A stretch of 64,000 nt of DNA from Paenibacillus kyungheensis (GTDB lineage: Bacteria > Bacillota > Bacilli > Paenibacillales > Paenibacillaceae), in assembly GCF_028606985.1 (NCBI RefSeq), contig NZ_CP117416.1:4837001-4901000 (forward strand), written 5' to 3'. This document shows, one piece after another, positions 6,420 through 59,879 of this stretch. A model generated the notes under the pieces. It saw only the letters and a program-made list of their open reading frames with translations. It was not told the origin of the DNA and ran no database searches. The stretch's first letter is position 1, and each line of letters opens with the position of its first letter. Position numbers and translations under genes: made by a program.

Positions 6420-7835
6420 TTATACCGATGCAACAGCTGGAACATTGTCTAGTGATTCCGGTTCATCATGCTGAATAAGAGAATGTTTCTCCCATGCTCT
6501 GCTCTTCCAGCGGAAGTACATAATAACAGCACGTACCCATTCATCTGCCGCAATCGCTAACCAGATGCCTGCAAGCCCTAGATTCATTTTGAAAACAAAT
6601 AGATATCCAAGTGGCAAGCTCATGCAGACCATCGAGATCAATCCCATATAGACAGGGAACTTGGCATCTCCTGACGCACGAAGTGAGTTAATAATAACAA
6701 TATTACAGGTTCGTCCGGTCTCCAGTAAGAAGCTGAGCAATATGACCTGTGATGCCATTCGAATAATTTCAGGATTATCTGTGAACATACCGATCAATGG
6801 CACGCGGAAAATGATAATCAAAATATCCATTACCAGTGTAGCCGCCATCGCCCATTTCACACTGGACCATACGCGTTTGTACGCTTGGTCTTTCAGATTC
6901 GCTCCAACAAGACGACCGACAATAATCGCTGTCCCCATTCCAATCGCAATACTGAACAGATAGATAAAGGTCGAGATATTGTTAGCATACTGACGGGAAG
7001 CCATTGCTTCACTACCTAGATAAGTAACATAGAATACAAATACCAACTGACATAATTGGTAGGTTACTTGTTCTACCGCAGAAGGTACACCGATTTTCAA
7101 AATTTGCATAATATATTTCTTGGTCATACGGAAGTAATCTTTAATCTGAATACGTACTTCCATCACACGATACAATAACCAGAAGAAAATCACTGCACAG
7201 ATTAGACGACTAACAATCGTAGAGATCGCTGCACCTTGTACACCCATTTGTGGCAGACCCCAATGACCGAAGATCAACAAGTAGTTACCTACAACGTGGA
7301 TCACGTTCATAAATACCGATACAAACATCGTTTCTTTCGTAAATCCATACGTACGAATCACTGCTGCTAATGTGTTGATCAATGCTTGTAAGAAAATCGC
7401 TCCACCAACAATCGCTATATAACTTTCAGCAAGTGCAAGAATCTCACCTTGCAAATGCATTTTCTCCATTAAATGTCCGCCCAACAAAAGGAATGTACCA
7501 CTGAGCAACAATCCAACTGTTAAATTAAGCGTAATCGCTACTGCTGTAATACGACTAGCTTCTAACACTTTACGAGAACCTATATATTGTGCGACAACGA
7601 TTGCTGCTCCGTTCCCGATCACTTCCAATACCAGTATTGCAATCGAGATAACCTGATTGGATGTTCCAACAGCAGCGACTGCATTATCCGATACATCACT
7701 TAACATTAAAGTATCAACAATTCCCATTAACATGAACAGAAATACTTCTAAAAAGATCGGCCATGTTAACCGGAAAAGATTAAATTGTTTGTTAATTACT
7801 GCGTTGCTTTCATTGGTGGATGTCATAGCGCTCAT
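6420..7835 (-). CDS. MATE family multidrug/cation efflux transporter
   Basis: 471 residues, ATG 7835, preceded by AAAAGGAAGGTG. About twelve hydrophobic helices in two repeated halves cover residues 15-440. The N-half reads FRLTWPIFLEVFLFMLMGIVDTLML, and GNGAAIVVAQYIGSRK is typical of the NorM/DinF-like family. It would sit in the cytoplasmic membrane and exchange Na+ or H+ for organic cations; the real substrate cannot be read from sequence. It is monocistronic: a terminator follows, and a 17-base inverted repeat lies 41 bases upstream, either an operator or a leader hairpin. Confidence 0.9.
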   Translation of the reverse strand: MSAMTSTNESNAVINKQFNLFRLTWPIFLEVFLFMLMGIVDTLMLSDVSDNAVAAVGTSNQVISIAILVLEVIGNGAAIVVAQYIGSRKVLEASRITAVAITLNLTVGLLLSGTFLLLGGHLMEKMHLQGEILALAESYIAIVGGAIFLQALINTLAAVIRTYGFTKETMFVSVFMNVIHVVGNYLLIFGHWGLPQMGVQGAAISTIVSRLICAVIFFWLLYRVMEVRIQIKDYFRMTKKYIMQILKIGVPSAVEQVTYQLCQLVFVFYVTYLGSEAMASRQYANNISTFIYLFSIAIGMGTAIIVGRLVGANLKDQAYKRVWSSVKWAMAATLVMDILIIIFRVPLIGMFTDNPEIIRMASQVILLSFLLETGRTCNIVIINSLRASGDAKFPVYMGLISMVCMSLPLGYLFVFKMNLGLAGIWLAIAADEWVRAVIMYFRWKSRAWEKHSLIQHDEPESLDNVPAVASV

Positions 7836-19385: not shown

Positions 19386-19678
19386 ATAGTTCTCCTTGCT
19401 ATTTTTGTATGATCTCTTAATGTCTTATATACGAAGATAGAAGTAGGATGGGTTCAAAATATCGCTTTGTATATTTTTACTTATAAAATTTGTTTAAAAT
19501 AGGTGATGACTTTTTACAAAGCTAGAGTATAATGATATACGCTTGCCTAAAAAGCTAGCTTAAACAAGCATTATTTGCTGTGCTTGATTCGTAGGAAATG
19601 CGTGTATATAAAACGTAAATTGATTAGTCTTTCTAAATGCTAAAATTCTAAATTTCAAGAAATGAAGGTGTGCACAAG
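19386..19678 (+). promoter_or_regulatory. kimA upstream region with TATAAT -10 box
   Basis: A strong -10 box TATAAT lies at 19528-19533, giving a leader of about 140 bases. The -35 is poor. The leader contains a small stem GCTTG/CAAGC (about 19541-19569) but none of the conserved blocks of the ydaO (c-di-AMP) riboswitch that precedes kimA in B. subtilis, as far as I can see. Confidence 0.45.
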
Positions 19679-21496
19679 ATGTTGGGTAAGTTCAAGCGTA
19701 TATTAATCGGAAGGCCGATGAAGTCAGCAGAACTTGAAGCTGAAAAATTAGGTCGGCTTAAAGCACTAGCAATTCTTTCTTCCGATGCGCTATCCTCGGT
19801 GGCATACGGAACAGAGCAAATTTTGCTAGTCCTCATGGTTGCTGGATTTGCTGCTTTGTGGTATTCGGTTCCAATCTCGATCGCGGTGCTTGGTTTGTTG
19901 GTTATTTTAATTATTTCGTATCGCCAAACGATTTTTGCGTATCCAGCAGGTGGTGGTGCGTACATTGTAGCCAAGGATAATATCGGTAAAGCCCCCAGCT
20001 TAATAGCCGGTGGATCGTTACTTGTTGATTATATCCTAACTGTAGCCGTAAGTTCATCCGCCGGAACAGATGCAATTACTTCTGCTTTTCCAGTATTGCA
20101 TGATCACCGGGTTCTGATCGCGCTCGTGATGATCGTATTCTTAACGATTATGAATCTACGTGGTGTAACTGAATCTGCATCTGTACTCGCTATTCCTATT
20201 TATTTATTTGTTGTCGCTATTTTTGTACTGATTATTACAGGAGTTATTCGTTACTTTACAGGCGGAATCGAAGCCGCTGCTCCGCAATTTGATAGTACAG
20301 TCTCGAATGTAAGTCTATTCTTATTGCTCAAAGCATTTAGCTCGGGTTGTTCGGCACTGACAGGGGTAGAAGCTGTATCTAATGCTATTCCTAACTTCCG
20401 TAAGCCTGCTGAGAAAAATGCAGCTGCTACACTTCTAATGATGGGTATTATTTTGGGTGCTATGTTTATCGGAATTACATTGCTTGCTTACTGGTATGGT
20501 ATTCATCCAAGTGCAACCGAAACGGTTATTTCTCAAATTGCCCGAATGACGTTTGGTCATGGGACACTGTATTATGTGATTCAAGGTGTCACTGCACTGA
20601 TTCTATTCCTTGCAGCCAATACAGCGTACTCTGCGTTCCCACTACTTGCCTTTATGTTAGCAAAAGATAAATATATGCCACATATGTTTATGGTACGTGG
20701 TGATCGTCTAGGTTTCTCTAACGGTATTATTATTTTGAGTCTATTATCTGCTTTGTTAGTTATTGTATTTAAAGGAGACACTGAGAATCTTATTCCACTG
20801 TATGCGGTTGGTGTATTTATTCCATTTACCTTATCACAATTAGGAATGATGATTCGCTGGATTCGTCTCAAGCCATCGAACTGGGGATTGAAGTTAACGA
20901 TTAACACTGTCGGTATGTTAACGACATTATCGATCACATTGATCTTTATTTTCACCAAGTTCTCGCAAGTATGGGTTATCTTTCTGTTCTTACCGTTCGT
21001 GGTATATATTTTCTACAAAATCTATACGCATTATGAAAATACAGCAGAACAATTACGTATCGATATCAAAGTCGATAAGCCTGAAGTCAAAGGAAATACG
21101 ATTATTATTCCAGTTGCCGGCATTACACGTGTAGTGATGAACACGATCAGCTATGCGAAGACGTTATCTCCTAATGTCGTTGCTGTCTATGTTGGTTTCG
21201 ATGATGAAGCGATTCATAAGATGGAGCAGAAATGGGAAGAATGGAATCCAGGTGTACGTCTGATTGTACTGAAATCACGTTACCGCAGTATTCTAGGTCC
21301 TTTACGTCGCTTTATTGATACCGTTGAATGGAAAACATCAGCAACCGATCATATTACCGTCCTGATTCCACAGTTTGTCACTCATCACTGGTGGGAAACG
21401 ATTTTGCATAATCAGACCAGTCTATTGATGCGTGCTTATCTGATTAACTACAAAGACGTTGTTGTTGCGACTGTTCCATACCATTTGAATAAATAG
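19679..21496 (+). CDS. kimA: KimA-type high-affinity potassium importer (YdaO family)
   Basis: 605 residues from ATG 19679 (AAGG ten bases upstream; the in-frame GTG at 19670 is too close). Twelve helices of the APC/KUP superfamily span about 25-455. Signature stretches match KimA throughout: LAILSSDALSSVAYGTEQIL, YPAGGGAYIVAKDN, LLVDYILTVAVSSSAGTDA, SGCSALTGVEAVSNAIP and VRGDRLGFSNGII. A soluble C-terminal domain (about 460-605) ends VATVPYHLNK. In B. subtilis the homodimer imports K+ with H+ and is inhibited by c-di-AMP. It is a single-gene unit. Confidence 0.92.
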   Translation: MLGKFKRILIGRPMKSAELEAEKLGRLKALAILSSDALSSVAYGTEQILLVLMVAGFAALWYSVPISIAVLGLLVILIISYRQTIFAYPAGGGAYIVAKDNIGKAPSLIAGGSLLVDYILTVAVSSSAGTDAITSAFPVLHDHRVLIALVMIVFLTIMNLRGVTESASVLAIPIYLFVVAIFVLIITGVIRYFTGGIEAAAPQFDSTVSNVSLFLLLKAFSSGCSALTGVEAVSNAIPNFRKPAEKNAAATLLMMGIILGAMFIGITLLAYWYGIHPSATETVISQIARMTFGHGTLYYVIQGVTALILFLAANTAYSAFPLLAFMLAKDKYMPHMFMVRGDRLGFSNGIIILSLLSALLVIVFKGDTENLIPLYAVGVFIPFTLSQLGMMIRWIRLKPSNWGLKLTINTVGMLTTLSITLIFIFTKFSQVWVIFLFLPFVVYIFYKIYTHYENTAEQLRIDIKVDKPEVKGNTIIIPVAGITRVVMNTISYAKTLSPNVVAVYVGFDDEAIHKMEQKWEEWNPGVRLIVLKSRYRSILGPLRRFIDTVEWKTSATDHITVLIPQFVTHHWWETILHNQTSLLMRAYLINYKDVVVATVPYHLNK

Positions 21497-21530
21497 ACTG
21501 TACAATGGTTGAGCGACTCCGCTACATGAT

Positions 21531-21650
21531 CGATATTGTTCTTATCGTCGCTTGTTGTCAATCGATATCTGGAATAACCGCTCGGGCGGTACATATCGAT
21601 TGACAAAGGCGATCGCTTCGCTCTTTCAGAATAATATCGCTCCCTCCGCT
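21531..21650 (+). repeat. Structured intergenic element, copy A
   Basis: Contains a perfect 14-bp stem TTGTCAATCGATAT (21555-21568) and ATATCGATTGACAA (21593-21606), capped by an inner ACCGC-TCGG-GCGGT hairpin (21577-21590) with an 8-base bulge on the 5' side. It is followed by GCGATCGCTTCGCTCTTTCAG and an ATATCGCTCCCTCCGCT tail. CGATATT near the start (21531) can pair with AATATCG in the tail. Copy B at 59411-59580 has the same layout, a nearly identical 3' block and entirely different but equally paired stem sequences. It could be a small RNA, a REP/MITE-like element or a processing signal. Confidence 0.65.
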
Positions 21651-21733
21651 TTGAAGGTCTTTGCAACAAGTATTTTATCTTCTATTTGGGTAGAGTAGAC
21701 GTTAAAAAATAAAACATCTACAGAGCTCAAAAT

Positions 21734-45528: not shown

Positions 45529-45573
45529 TCATTTTGATTGATATTATCTGCTGATTTCTGTTTTTGAGCACAC

Positions 45574-45662
45574 AAAAAACCTAAGCCCTGAAAAATAGCG
45601 GATCAATCGATCGCACTACTTTTCAGAACTTAGGTTTTGCCTGCATCACCAGTAACAACCCC
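45574..45662 (-). promoter_or_regulatory. LicT-type RAT and terminator upstream of bglP
   Basis: On the minus strand GGGTTGTTACTGGTGATGCAGGCAAAACCTAA (about 45662-45631) is a textbook LicT RAT. Its 3' part is shared with a long terminator stem, AACCTAAGTTCTGAAAAGTAG and CTATTTTTCAGGGCTTAGGTT, ending in TTTTTTG (45574-45636). The two structures are mutually exclusive. Confidence 0.95.
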
Positions 45663-45714
45663 GGCTGTACTATTTGATTGTGTAGTTAGCTGTTCTTGTT
45701 ATTTCAATGTGCTT

Positions 45715-57841: not shown

Positions 57842-59385
57842 GATTGTTCTCCTTTGTGATCTTGTACCGATTGATGCGTACGAATCGATAACCCTACTTC
57901 AAACATACGATTCCATGGCATATAGCAATCTTGAATATCAATACGAACGCCATTTTCTTGCAAATGTTCCACAATAAATTGCTCCAAATGACTACGCACC
58001 ATTTCGGCAACATATCCTCGTTCACCGTCTAATTGAAATTTATCCAGACCTAATTCTTGGATCGGCCCATTGCTCAAATACTTACGTACTACCGAATCGT
58101 AGCCCAGATCTTCCACATACCGTAAGGCTAGAAAATCCATATGTTCTTGAGTAGCACCATACATACGGTAGATCATCGATTGTGCTATCACCGTACCTAA
58201 CGTATTAGAACTGGTATTCCATCCTGCATATCCTGCCAGTTGATACAGAATTCCACGCTGACGAAGCAAATCCAGTAATTCAAGATCGCCGCCATTGGCA
58301 TAAGCGATATCACCAATCGCTACAACAGCATCTGGATTACGATCCAATATGTAACCTGCATACTCGACCAGCTCTACAGTGGTTCGTTCTGTATCATAGT
58401 TAGCTGAAGGTGATCCTTGATAGACCGCTTCACCCATTTTCTCTCCTGCGGTGTTCAGCAGTAACAAGATATCTGCGCTTTGTTCGTCTGAAGCCACCAT
58501 GCCTCCTGCGGCAATAATCTGGTACTTCAATGTTTCATATAATCGGCGATCTTCATAAGCAGGAATAATAAACGCTCCGTTCACCGAACTAAAGCGAACA
58601 TAGACTTGCGGAATATGGTTACTTAACTGATTGATCATACGAGCAACCAGTGTACAACCTACTTCATCTGCTCCTGGATACATATAGACGCGTAATCCGA
58701 GACGTAATGCTCGAATACGTGTCCGCACTTCTTGTTGATCTCTAGCTGTATAGCCATAAGGAGCTGAATCGTCTTGCGGGAAAATCAGAAAATCGATCAC
58801 ACCTTGCTCTACATAATCCAGTGCCAATCGATTGATTTCTCGATTTACTGCACGCCGACCTAGATAATCATCCAGTACCTCTTGTGGCAAACGGCTATTG
58901 ATATCATCCAGTTCTTGCTGTTCTTCTGTCGTTAATGTGTGCTCTTCACCATAATGTTCTAGATATCCTTTGCGGAAAATTTCTCGTCCCCAATCGGCAT
59001 AATAATCCGGCTCTTCATCAGAAGAAGAGTATTGCGGACATCGCATAATCAGTTGAAAAGCAAACAATTTGAGTGATGGATTCTGCTCTTTCAGTTGTTT
59101 TAATTGATCAAGCCGGCGTGTTAGCTCATCCATATCTAGTTCGTGCAGACGGGAAGGAACAATTCCACCATATAGCAATGTATCTAATGCAATCACTGCT
59201 CCGTCAGCCGATTGACATTCCAGCTTGGTCCATGTCCACAAGCGCTGTGTATCTGCGGCAATCTTTTTGCGACCCATCCATTCATGAGGCGGACGGACAG
59301 CCTGATAAGAGGTTCCTCGTGTCAGTTCATAAGGAAAATGATAATTACAAGGTCTTTCGTCTAAAGGTACAATCACCAATTTCAT
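57838..59385 (-). CDS. DUF4127 family protein
   Basis: 515 residues, AAAGGAG before ATG. MKLVIVPLDERPCNYHFP is the strongly conserved DUF4127 opening; later ALDTLLYGGIVPSR, FLIFPQDDSAPYG, MYPGADEVGC and IAYANGGD. The acidic and His/Asp-rich conserved loops suggest a metal-dependent or sugar-acting enzyme, but no function is established that I know. Coupled to the FAD oxidoreductase by ATGA overlap. The 494-base gap to the ABC genes holds structured element B. Confidence 0.85.
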   Translation of the reverse strand: MKLVIVPLDERPCNYHFPYELTRGTSYQAVRPPHEWMGRKKIAADTQRLWTWTKLECQSADGAVIALDTLLYGGIVPSRLHELDMDELTRRLDQLKQLKEQNPSLKLFAFQLIMRCPQYSSSDEEPDYYADWGREIFRKGYLEHYGEEHTLTTEEQQELDDINSRLPQEVLDDYLGRRAVNREINRLALDYVEQGVIDFLIFPQDDSAPYGYTARDQQEVRTRIRALRLGLRVYMYPGADEVGCTLVARMINQLSNHIPQVYVRFSSVNGAFIIPAYEDRRLYETLKYQIIAAGGMVASDEQSADILLLLNTAGEKMGEAVYQGSPSANYDTERTTVELVEYAGYILDRNPDAVVAIGDIAYANGGDLELLDLLRQRGILYQLAGYAGWNTSSNTLGTVIAQSMIYRMYGATQEHMDFLALRYVEDLGYDSVVRKYLSNGPIQELGLDKFQLDGERGYVAEMVRSHLEQFIVEHLQENGVRIDIQDCYMPWNRMFEVGLSIRTHQSVQDHKGEQS

Positions 59386-59410
59386 TTGGGATAGACTCCT
59401 TTGAGTTACA

Positions 59411-59580
59411 CTGCTTTGGGAACGATATCTTGCTTGTCGTCGCTGGTAAAGATGGATATCTTGATTTGACTGCTGGGCAGTCGATATCCATCTTAGGTGT
59501 ATGCTTACGAAGTAGTTTTCTAAAGAAAACTTGTAAAGCGAGCGCTTCGCTCTTTCAGCATGATATCGTTCCCTTCGCTC
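59411..59580 (+). repeat. Structured intergenic element, copy B
   Basis: An outer 12-bp stem GGGAACGATATC (59418-59429) pairs with GATATCGTTCCC (59562-59573). Inside, AAGATGGATATC (59449-59460) pairs perfectly with GATATCCATCTT (59483-59494), capped by GACTGC-TGG-GCAGTC, with a 7-base bulge on the 5' side. A third hairpin AGTTTTCT/AGAAAACT (59513-59530) is an insertion relative to copy A. GCGAGCGCTTCGCTCTTTCAG and TCGTTCCCTTCGCT match copy A. The inner stem sequences differ from copy A at nearly every position but are paired in both, which is covariation at the level of architecture. Confidence 0.65.
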
Positions 59581-59879
59581 AGAGTAAGCTCGGCAATTTT
59601 CTATTTGGTGGGGCAGGAAAAGATGGACTGCTTGTTGTAAAGTTACTTTTTTTGTTTTAAGGAATAGTTATAAAAGAAATAGTTTATTTTAAAGAAAAGA
59701 GATAGTTGAAAATGAATATTTGAAATAGAGCTTATTTTATTAAAAAGTATAGTGTTGATAAAATTTTCACTTGGAAATTATCAAAATTCTTTTCCACTTT
59801 AACGCTATCACTTTTGATTAAGATATGCTTTCAGCAAGATTCTTGATAGTGGATCGTTTATATAGGTGTATTAATTTTG
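59581..59879. other. AT-rich interval after element B
   Basis: It shares TTTTCTATTTGG (about 59597-59608) with the 3' flank of copy A. Farther on, TTGATAA ... TTATCAA-like arms (about 59754-59782) could form a weak hairpin that ends the ABC transcript on the minus strand. Nothing else recognisable. Confidence 0.4.

Follow-up and report, generated by a model that had tools for sequence, protein, structure and literature searches.

The two structured elements lying in a 64,000-nucleotide stretch of the Paenibacillus kyungheensis genome (the window), referred to here as copies A and B, are members of a single family of hairpin repeats that is dispersed between genes, appears to be unnamed, and is restricted, at the sensitivity of our searches, to Paenibacillus and to genera related to it within the same order. 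We consider it somewhat probable that this family is a non-coding palindromic intergenic repeat of a MITE- or REP-like kind, mostly inherited in place, whose hairpin probably acts at gene borders and whose mobilising enzyme is putative. The repeat has nevertheless been left out of the MITE and REP classes proper, because neither conserved ends nor consistent target duplications were found, this genome has no RAYT and searches of limited reach gave no matching transposase. In the first-pass annotation of the window, REP and MITE families had been named only as an outcome that would count against its reading; the family does behave like a dispersed palindromic repeat of that sort. As far as our tools reach, none of the adverse outcomes listed there (no further copies, no covariation, a match to a known REP or MITE family) occurred, the named REP and MITE families having been compared by description.

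Inspection of the sequence together with folding indicates that each of the two copies is one long imperfect hairpin (Table 1). An outer stem of 12 bp in both copies encloses an inner stem of 14 bp in copy A and of 12 bp in copy B, and both carry a small capping hairpin with a bulge of 7-8 nt on its 5' side, as well as GCGAnCGCTTCGCTCTTTCAG, ATATCGnTCCCTnCGCT and TTCTATTTGG, so that every part of the layout of stem, cap, bulge and motifs initially described for the two copies was found. Two details of that description have to be amended. The ATATCGnTCCCT block is present, but it cannot be read as single-stranded since it contains the 3' arm of the outer stem, and the statement that the stem sequences differ almost completely is truer of the family at large than of this pair, the inner stems of A and B both carrying GATAT(C) at their inner ends. 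Both copies fold better than their shuffled counterparts, copy A with a z of -2.67 (3 of 200 shuffles equally good) and copy B with a z of -3.77 (0 of 200). Copy B has an additional hairpin of about 40 nt between the inner stem and the conserved block. A longer hairpin (around AAGTAGCTTTC...GAAAGCTTGTAGCTC) was also observed to replace or join the small 3' hairpin in copy B and at the sites corresponding to 4543167 and 654881 in the genome G006, taken to be that of Paenibacillus nuruki.

Table 1. Positions of copies A and B and of their parts, numbered from the first nucleotide of the window.
Feature	Position	Strand	Basis or remark
Copy A, whole unit	21511..21703	+	Bounds by eye against the G006 site without element; final GTT may be a target duplication
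Copy A, covariance-model core	21520..21648	+	118.3 bits
Copy A, outer stem, 5' arm (partner 21628-21639)	21531..21542	+	Fold; outer-stem pairs covary
Copy A, outer stem, 3' arm	21628..21639	+	Fold
Copy A, conserved junction stem, 5' side, GTCGCTT (partner 21607-21613)	21547..21553	+	Fold; columns mostly invariant
Copy A, inner stem, 5' arm (partner 21593-21606)	21555..21568	+	Fold; covariation
Copy A, inner stem, 3' arm	21593..21606	+	Fold
Copy A, capping hairpin ACCGC/GCGGT	21577..21590	+	Fold
Copy A, conserved block GCGATCGCTTCGCTCTTTCAG	21609..21629	+	Mostly invariant or nearly so in 28 aligned copies
Copy A, distal TTCTATTTGGGTAGAGTAGAC module, within the unit	21680..21700	+	Lacking in G006, like the whole unit
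Copy B, covariance-model core	59412..59577	+	67.3 bits
Copy B, outer stem, 5' arm (partner 59562-59573)	59418..59429	+	Fold
Copy B, outer stem, 3' arm	59562..59573	+	Fold
Copy B, inner stem, 5' arm (partner 59483-59494)	59449..59460	+	Fold
Copy B, inner stem, 3' arm	59483..59494	+	Fold
Copy B, extra hairpin, missing from most copies	59495..59534	+	Long insert in 2 of 35 alignment rows

A search with a covariance model built from 28 copies (from this genome and G006) located the element at no fewer than 58 places in this genome of 5.26 Mb, where blastn within the genome found 25. The model search returned 59 rows, one of them a reverse-strand shadow, and the resulting 58 places are a lower bound, 150 of 1769 candidates having been scored. 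Matches were found in all 16 genomes of the genus (3-68 each). The order was sampled evenly, 29 candidates or fewer being scored in each genome, and 80 of the 119 genomes and 18 of the 34 genera gave matches. A sample of the phylum, which doubles as a specificity control of the model, rendered 4 matching genomes out of 149, all four in the Paenibacillaceae, the family to which the window belongs. In a pattern scan of public genomes, 78 of the matches listed (80 of at least 120 stretches) were titled Paenibacillus and 2 Saccharibacillus; two queries of plasmid records and one of phage records gave no match to the element. What had first been noted as a pair of structured twins is thus, after a model search of the genome and its relatives, one dispersed family with many more copies, to which both A and B belong. 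In Paenibacillus polysaccharolyticus (L228, 2204-2773), three complete copies were seen in tandem with a period of about 221 bp, followed by the start of a fourth.

The family has a common layout which, from the outside inwards, consists of CGCTnCG, a variable outer stem, a conserved junction, a variable inner stem, the bulge (often CCTTGAAT) and the small capping hairpin. In the junction, CGTCGCT forms the left side and GGCGAnCGCTTCGCTCTTTCAG the right side, with CGTCGCT opposite GGCGAnCG, plus CTTCGCTCTTTCAG. Conservation is highest in the internal parts and lowest in the end sequences and outer arms, the latter being paired and yet the most variable part of the element, a pattern that differs from that of a typical MITE. 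In the alignment of 28 copies, 95.4% of the cells pair and 25 of the 39 pairs show double-sided changes, the covariation score of 0.535 lying above those of all 500 shuffles (0.164) and of all 6 slid controls (0.125 or less). Since related rows inflate tests of this kind, orthologous sites of this genome (G000) and G006 were compared. In 39 ortholog pairs, 63 base pairs had changed on both sides, where the rate of change at single sites predicts 9.4. Of these 63, 53 still pair, the structure having been predicted from the G000 copy, which somewhat favours pairing in G000. After dropping six ortholog pairs with less than 85% identity, 28 double changes were counted in the remaining 33, where 3.0 were expected, and 26 of the 28 still pair. 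Covariation of the stems, suggested at first from two copies, therefore holds statistically both against shuffled and slid controls and at orthologous sites. The accompanying proposal that structure is selected rather than sequence is only partly supported: the sequence is conserved as well, 37 of the 136 alignment columns being invariant, and selection of the structure as RNA is no more than putative.

The element is mostly old, a copy or a remnant being present in P. nuruki at 50 of the 52 sites assessed (out of 58, the other six lying outside the assessment). For 39 of the 58 copies, flank matches led to an element recognised by the model at the same place in G006. Thirteen further sites were inspected by eye, of which one is intact (4543167), ten are partial (copy B, 2242271, 3281121, 3967465, 1239987, 654881, 1151306, 209011, 229846 and 743451) and two, those of copy A and 1194975, are without trace. 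The remnants at 2242271, 3281121 and 209011 end right after CGTCGCT, that is, at the base of the inner hairpin, and this hairpin has been lost at several G006 sites, including that of copy B, which indicates that not every copy is needed. Where the element persists it is better conserved than the noncoding DNA beside it: over the 39 ortholog pairs the elements diverge by 9.0%, the 3' noncoding flank by 29% and the short 5' noncoding gap by 16%, the element being the less diverged in 30 of 34 loci when compared with the 3' flank and in 23 of 31 when compared with the 5' gap, figures that cover the orthologs recognised by the model and not the decayed ones and are thereby biased toward constraint. 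An inverted pair of elements is located between purC and purS (named from sequence and gene order) in this genome and in the Paenibacillus loci L209, L276 and L272, the last of which carries a duplicate of one member; of the second member only a remnant is left in G006, and by eye the stems of the pair differ largely between genera. In the case of G000:C1:1151306 and 3106618, two genes with near-identical starts have the element at the same upstream place, as if gene and element had been duplicated together.

Evidence that members of the family have moved is thin. Copy A is the best candidate for an insertion, as it offers the sole reasonably clean pair of a filled and an empty site: a unit of about 190 bp with a possible 3 bp GTT duplication, which could be due to chance, is missing from the corresponding place in G006. 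The edges of the site at 1194975 are not clean, and a GTT-like duplication was not seen there. Around the gene of copy A, the covariance model found no match in nine relatives (G006, G004, G009, G011, G001, G014, G008, G003 and G005). In G005 (L183), right after the gene that matches window positions 19670-21496, a shorter and divergent hairpin (CACTGCGGGAGAAATTC ... CCTCCGCT, with AAAGGCG...CTTTCA) was nevertheless identified by eye, which shares its end motifs with copy A and occupies the same site, and which the model left unscored. The model therefore misses divergent copies, and it is possible that the site was occupied earlier, that it has been used twice, or that the element has been lost in other relatives. 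Short hairpin variants like the one at L183 may be a further subfamily.

Genes were defined by choosing the longest ORFs, of 100 codons or more, that do not overlap one another. If overlaps of 20 nt or less at the edges are disregarded, 57 of the 58 copies lie outside genes so defined, and only that at 1235009 overlaps a chosen ORF. A 195-codon ORF that covers copy B (59073-59660) was dropped by this procedure, a longer gene on the opposite strand (DUF4127) overlapping it. In a second set of copies (the named set: 99 of 101 copies, from Paenibacillus and Saccharibacillus loci, two P. nuruki copies being left out), 8 of 99 overlap an ORF. The element is placed with an unusual polarity, its 5' end lying at a median of 54 nt from a coding region and its 3' end at 330 nt. 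The 5' end is the nearer one in 53 of 57 copies, in 48 of 57 after discounting the longer 3' tail, and in 42 of 57 with a tail of 120 nt; in the named set, where 76 copies have a clear neighbour on either side, the polarity is weaker (49 of 76). Among genes in tandem, the element tends to be antisense to its neighbours, both in this genome (30 of 40) and in the named set (47 of 59), and all six pairs of elements separated by less than 1.3 kb are arranged tail to tail. Strand and position relative to genes are not fixed, 37 of the 57 genes beside the 5' end reading away from the element and 20 toward it. Some copies are separated from a start codon by 26-61 nt that hold little beyond a Shine-Dalgarno-like sequence, so that they probably lie in transcribed leaders, and others directly follow stop codons. 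Copies A and B are flanked by genes of different families (amino acid permease, EamA transporter, DUF4127 and ABC permease component), and no single function recurs next to most copies among the 18 largest clusters of neighbouring ORFs. Orientation is also biased by replichore (40 of 58 copies, with the origin placed near coordinate 0 from dnaA and the terminus assumed at the midpoint). A rule based on the replication strand was considered and not retained: the five tandem regions with genes that run against replication follow the gene rule by 4 to 1, too few to decide.

A comparison of both strands of the window with 4227 Rfam families, at E up to 1, rendered no match at copy A or copy B, which bears out the initial impression that they represent no known riboswitch or tRNA-like family. 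The repeat has in common with the structured RNAs of Rfam a consensus structure with covariation and differs from them in that lack of a match. Neither four core-motif strings of the family nor a description of it were found in the literature searched, which mostly left subscription papers outside its scope. Among the repeats compared by description, bcr1-bcr3 of the Bacillus cereus group are likewise dispersed and intergenic and belong to the same bacterial class, and they are described as often forming part of UTRs or operon gaps (PMC3446304). The first of them, bcr1, is counted among MITEs in PMC3733652 and is specific to the B. cereus group according to a title cited in PMC3446304, whereas the Paenibacillus family spans many genera of another order. 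Correia/NEMIS, ERIC, RUP and YPAL/RU-2 are presented in PMC2229807 as similar non-coding mobile units of about 100-200 bp, mostly intergenic and giving rise to long stem-loop transcripts, but most of them have terminal inverted repeats, a terminal TA and target duplications, while in the Paenibacillus repeat the ends are variable, conservation lies in the inner junction and no duplication was observed consistently.

According to the explanation that we favour, the family would probably derive from a miniature element mobilised in trans, of about 190 bp as judged from copy A, whose copies would have been spread by an enzyme and are now inherited mostly in place. The hairpin, either as DNA or in transcripts, would act where genes begin and end. 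In leaders and trailers it may, for instance, be a stem-loop that serves processing or protects the ends, as has been discussed for other bacterial MITEs, and action at gene borders would explain why the element is retained beside both start and stop codons.

Other origins can be envisaged for a repeat of this kind. The size, palindromy and intergenic dispersal of the family are also those expected of a classical MITE, moved via its terminal inverted repeats by the transposase of a DDE insertion sequence, and both the empty G006 site of copy A and the clear matching end arms (CTATATAAGTTGAAC ... GTTCAACTTATATAG) detected by strict patterns in 5 of the 99 named copies point in the same direction. 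We regard this origin as unlikely, however, because the ends are variable and the inside is conserved, target duplications are not consistent, at most 2 of 52 assessed copies are traceless in G006, and a related hairpin stands at the site of copy A in G005. Moreover, when the 576 ORFs lying 2 kb or less from 157 copies were clustered, the 18 largest clusters included no transposase-like partner, and no matching insertion sequence came up in this general survey; the clusters that recur resemble sugar ABC permeases and pur operon proteins, as judged from sequence and order. Mobilisation as REP or REPIN elements by a RAYT, a Y1 HUH transposase, would fit the tail-to-tail pairs of hairpins and the CGTC motif from which the hairpin rises, a sequence that tags one superfamily of REPs (PMC3733652, in whose main text the word Paenibacillus does not occur). 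This origin is highly improbable and is largely refuted for this genome, since Y1_Tnp (PF01797) has no match anywhere in it (5 of 14 control genomes do match) and the unit of about 190 bp is far from the 20-40 bp of GTAG- and CGTC-tagged REPs.

The way in which the stems have changed bears on whether the hairpin works as RNA or as DNA, a genuine RNA being expected to favour G.U over A.C. Single changes in the 39 ortholog pairs led to G.U in 24 cases and to A.C in 28; those departing from a Watson-Crick pair in the 33 closer ortholog pairs gave 16 G.U, 17 A.C and 21 transversion mismatches, and 1x1 mismatches within the helices of 100 copies amounted to 50 G.T and 39 A.C. Such near-equal numbers are as expected of an unselected or DNA-level process. 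The T-boxes of the same two genomes, folded in the same way and used as a control (15 ortholog pairs), also rendered a weak asymmetry, with 33 G.U against 25 A.C and 10 to 2 static, so that the test has low power and gives a lean only, and the wobble asymmetry was dropped as proof of a DNA-level cause. It is conceivable that the palindrome is maintained by mutation, with template switching during replication copying one arm to the other and thereby producing covariation without selection, a process of quasipalindrome correction described in PMC7202029 and PMC8604942. The excess of double changes and the near-neutral spectrum of single changes are those anticipated from it, but there is no significant clustering of the double changes (2 adjacent, 0.8 being expected, with 370 of 2000 shuffles as high), the conserved unpaired blocks and the low divergence with respect to the flanks are left unexplained, and the T-box control also shows an excess of double changes (33 against 7.1 expected, 18 of them pairing), so that the spectrum is not unique to such a process; we find it rather unlikely, while giving it a real chance. 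Conversion of stems in blocks was likewise considered and found no support. A cis-regulatory RNA, with the reverse-complement strand folding in the 5' leader before the ribosome-binding site and controlling the downstream gene, would account for the antisense orientation in tandem contexts, for the short gaps with a Shine-Dalgarno-like sequence and for the strong covariation. In this pair of genomes, however, no clear wobble preference appears on either strand, 20 of 57 copies follow a stop codon in the sense orientation, and the neighbouring gene families of A and B differ, with no function recurring beside most copies. The 64 A.C against 7 G.T of the named set would be compatible with the reverse strand, but a single mismatch in a single sequence context, common to related copies, accounts for 44 of the 64, and we hold this explanation to be decidedly improbable. 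It can also be the case, doubtful as it seems to us, that the hairpin is a conserved and polarised device of gene borders, spread over the order and retained at the same borders even as its stems change sequence, for example in the pair between purC and purS, with the junction read by a putative protein or nuclease and the 5' side turned toward the coding region irrespective of the direction of the gene.

If the polarity and the constraint in place hold, the family is a natural collection, and a large one, of hairpins that were rewritten independently of one another at known gene borders, on which it could be tested directly whether covariation in bacterial intergenic repeats reflects RNA function, DNA-hairpin function or templated mutation. 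It would also give a name to an apparently unannotated element, of which genomes of this important soil and plant genus carry dozens of copies.

Some additional features were observed in the flanks of the copies and elsewhere in the window. A G-rich module (approximately GGGTGGGGGCAGGG) is found about 10-60 nt 3' of several G000 copies, for instance in L025 after 2602 and in L022 after 2501. A similar stretch persists at the element-free G006 site of 1194975, so that the module could represent a target or else an independent motif. Sequences of 7-8 bp (such as TCTTACC or ATTGAAGG) form short tandem repeats in the 3' flanks of several copies, in L018 (below 6814), L022 (after 2501) and L124 (copy 6488-6616). 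On the minus strand of the window, positions 45557-45686 give a weak match to a bglG/LicT cis-regulatory element (27.9 bits, below the gathering score of 80), and positions 167-266 contain a purine riboswitch aptamer, with 65.9 bits against a gathering score of 37.
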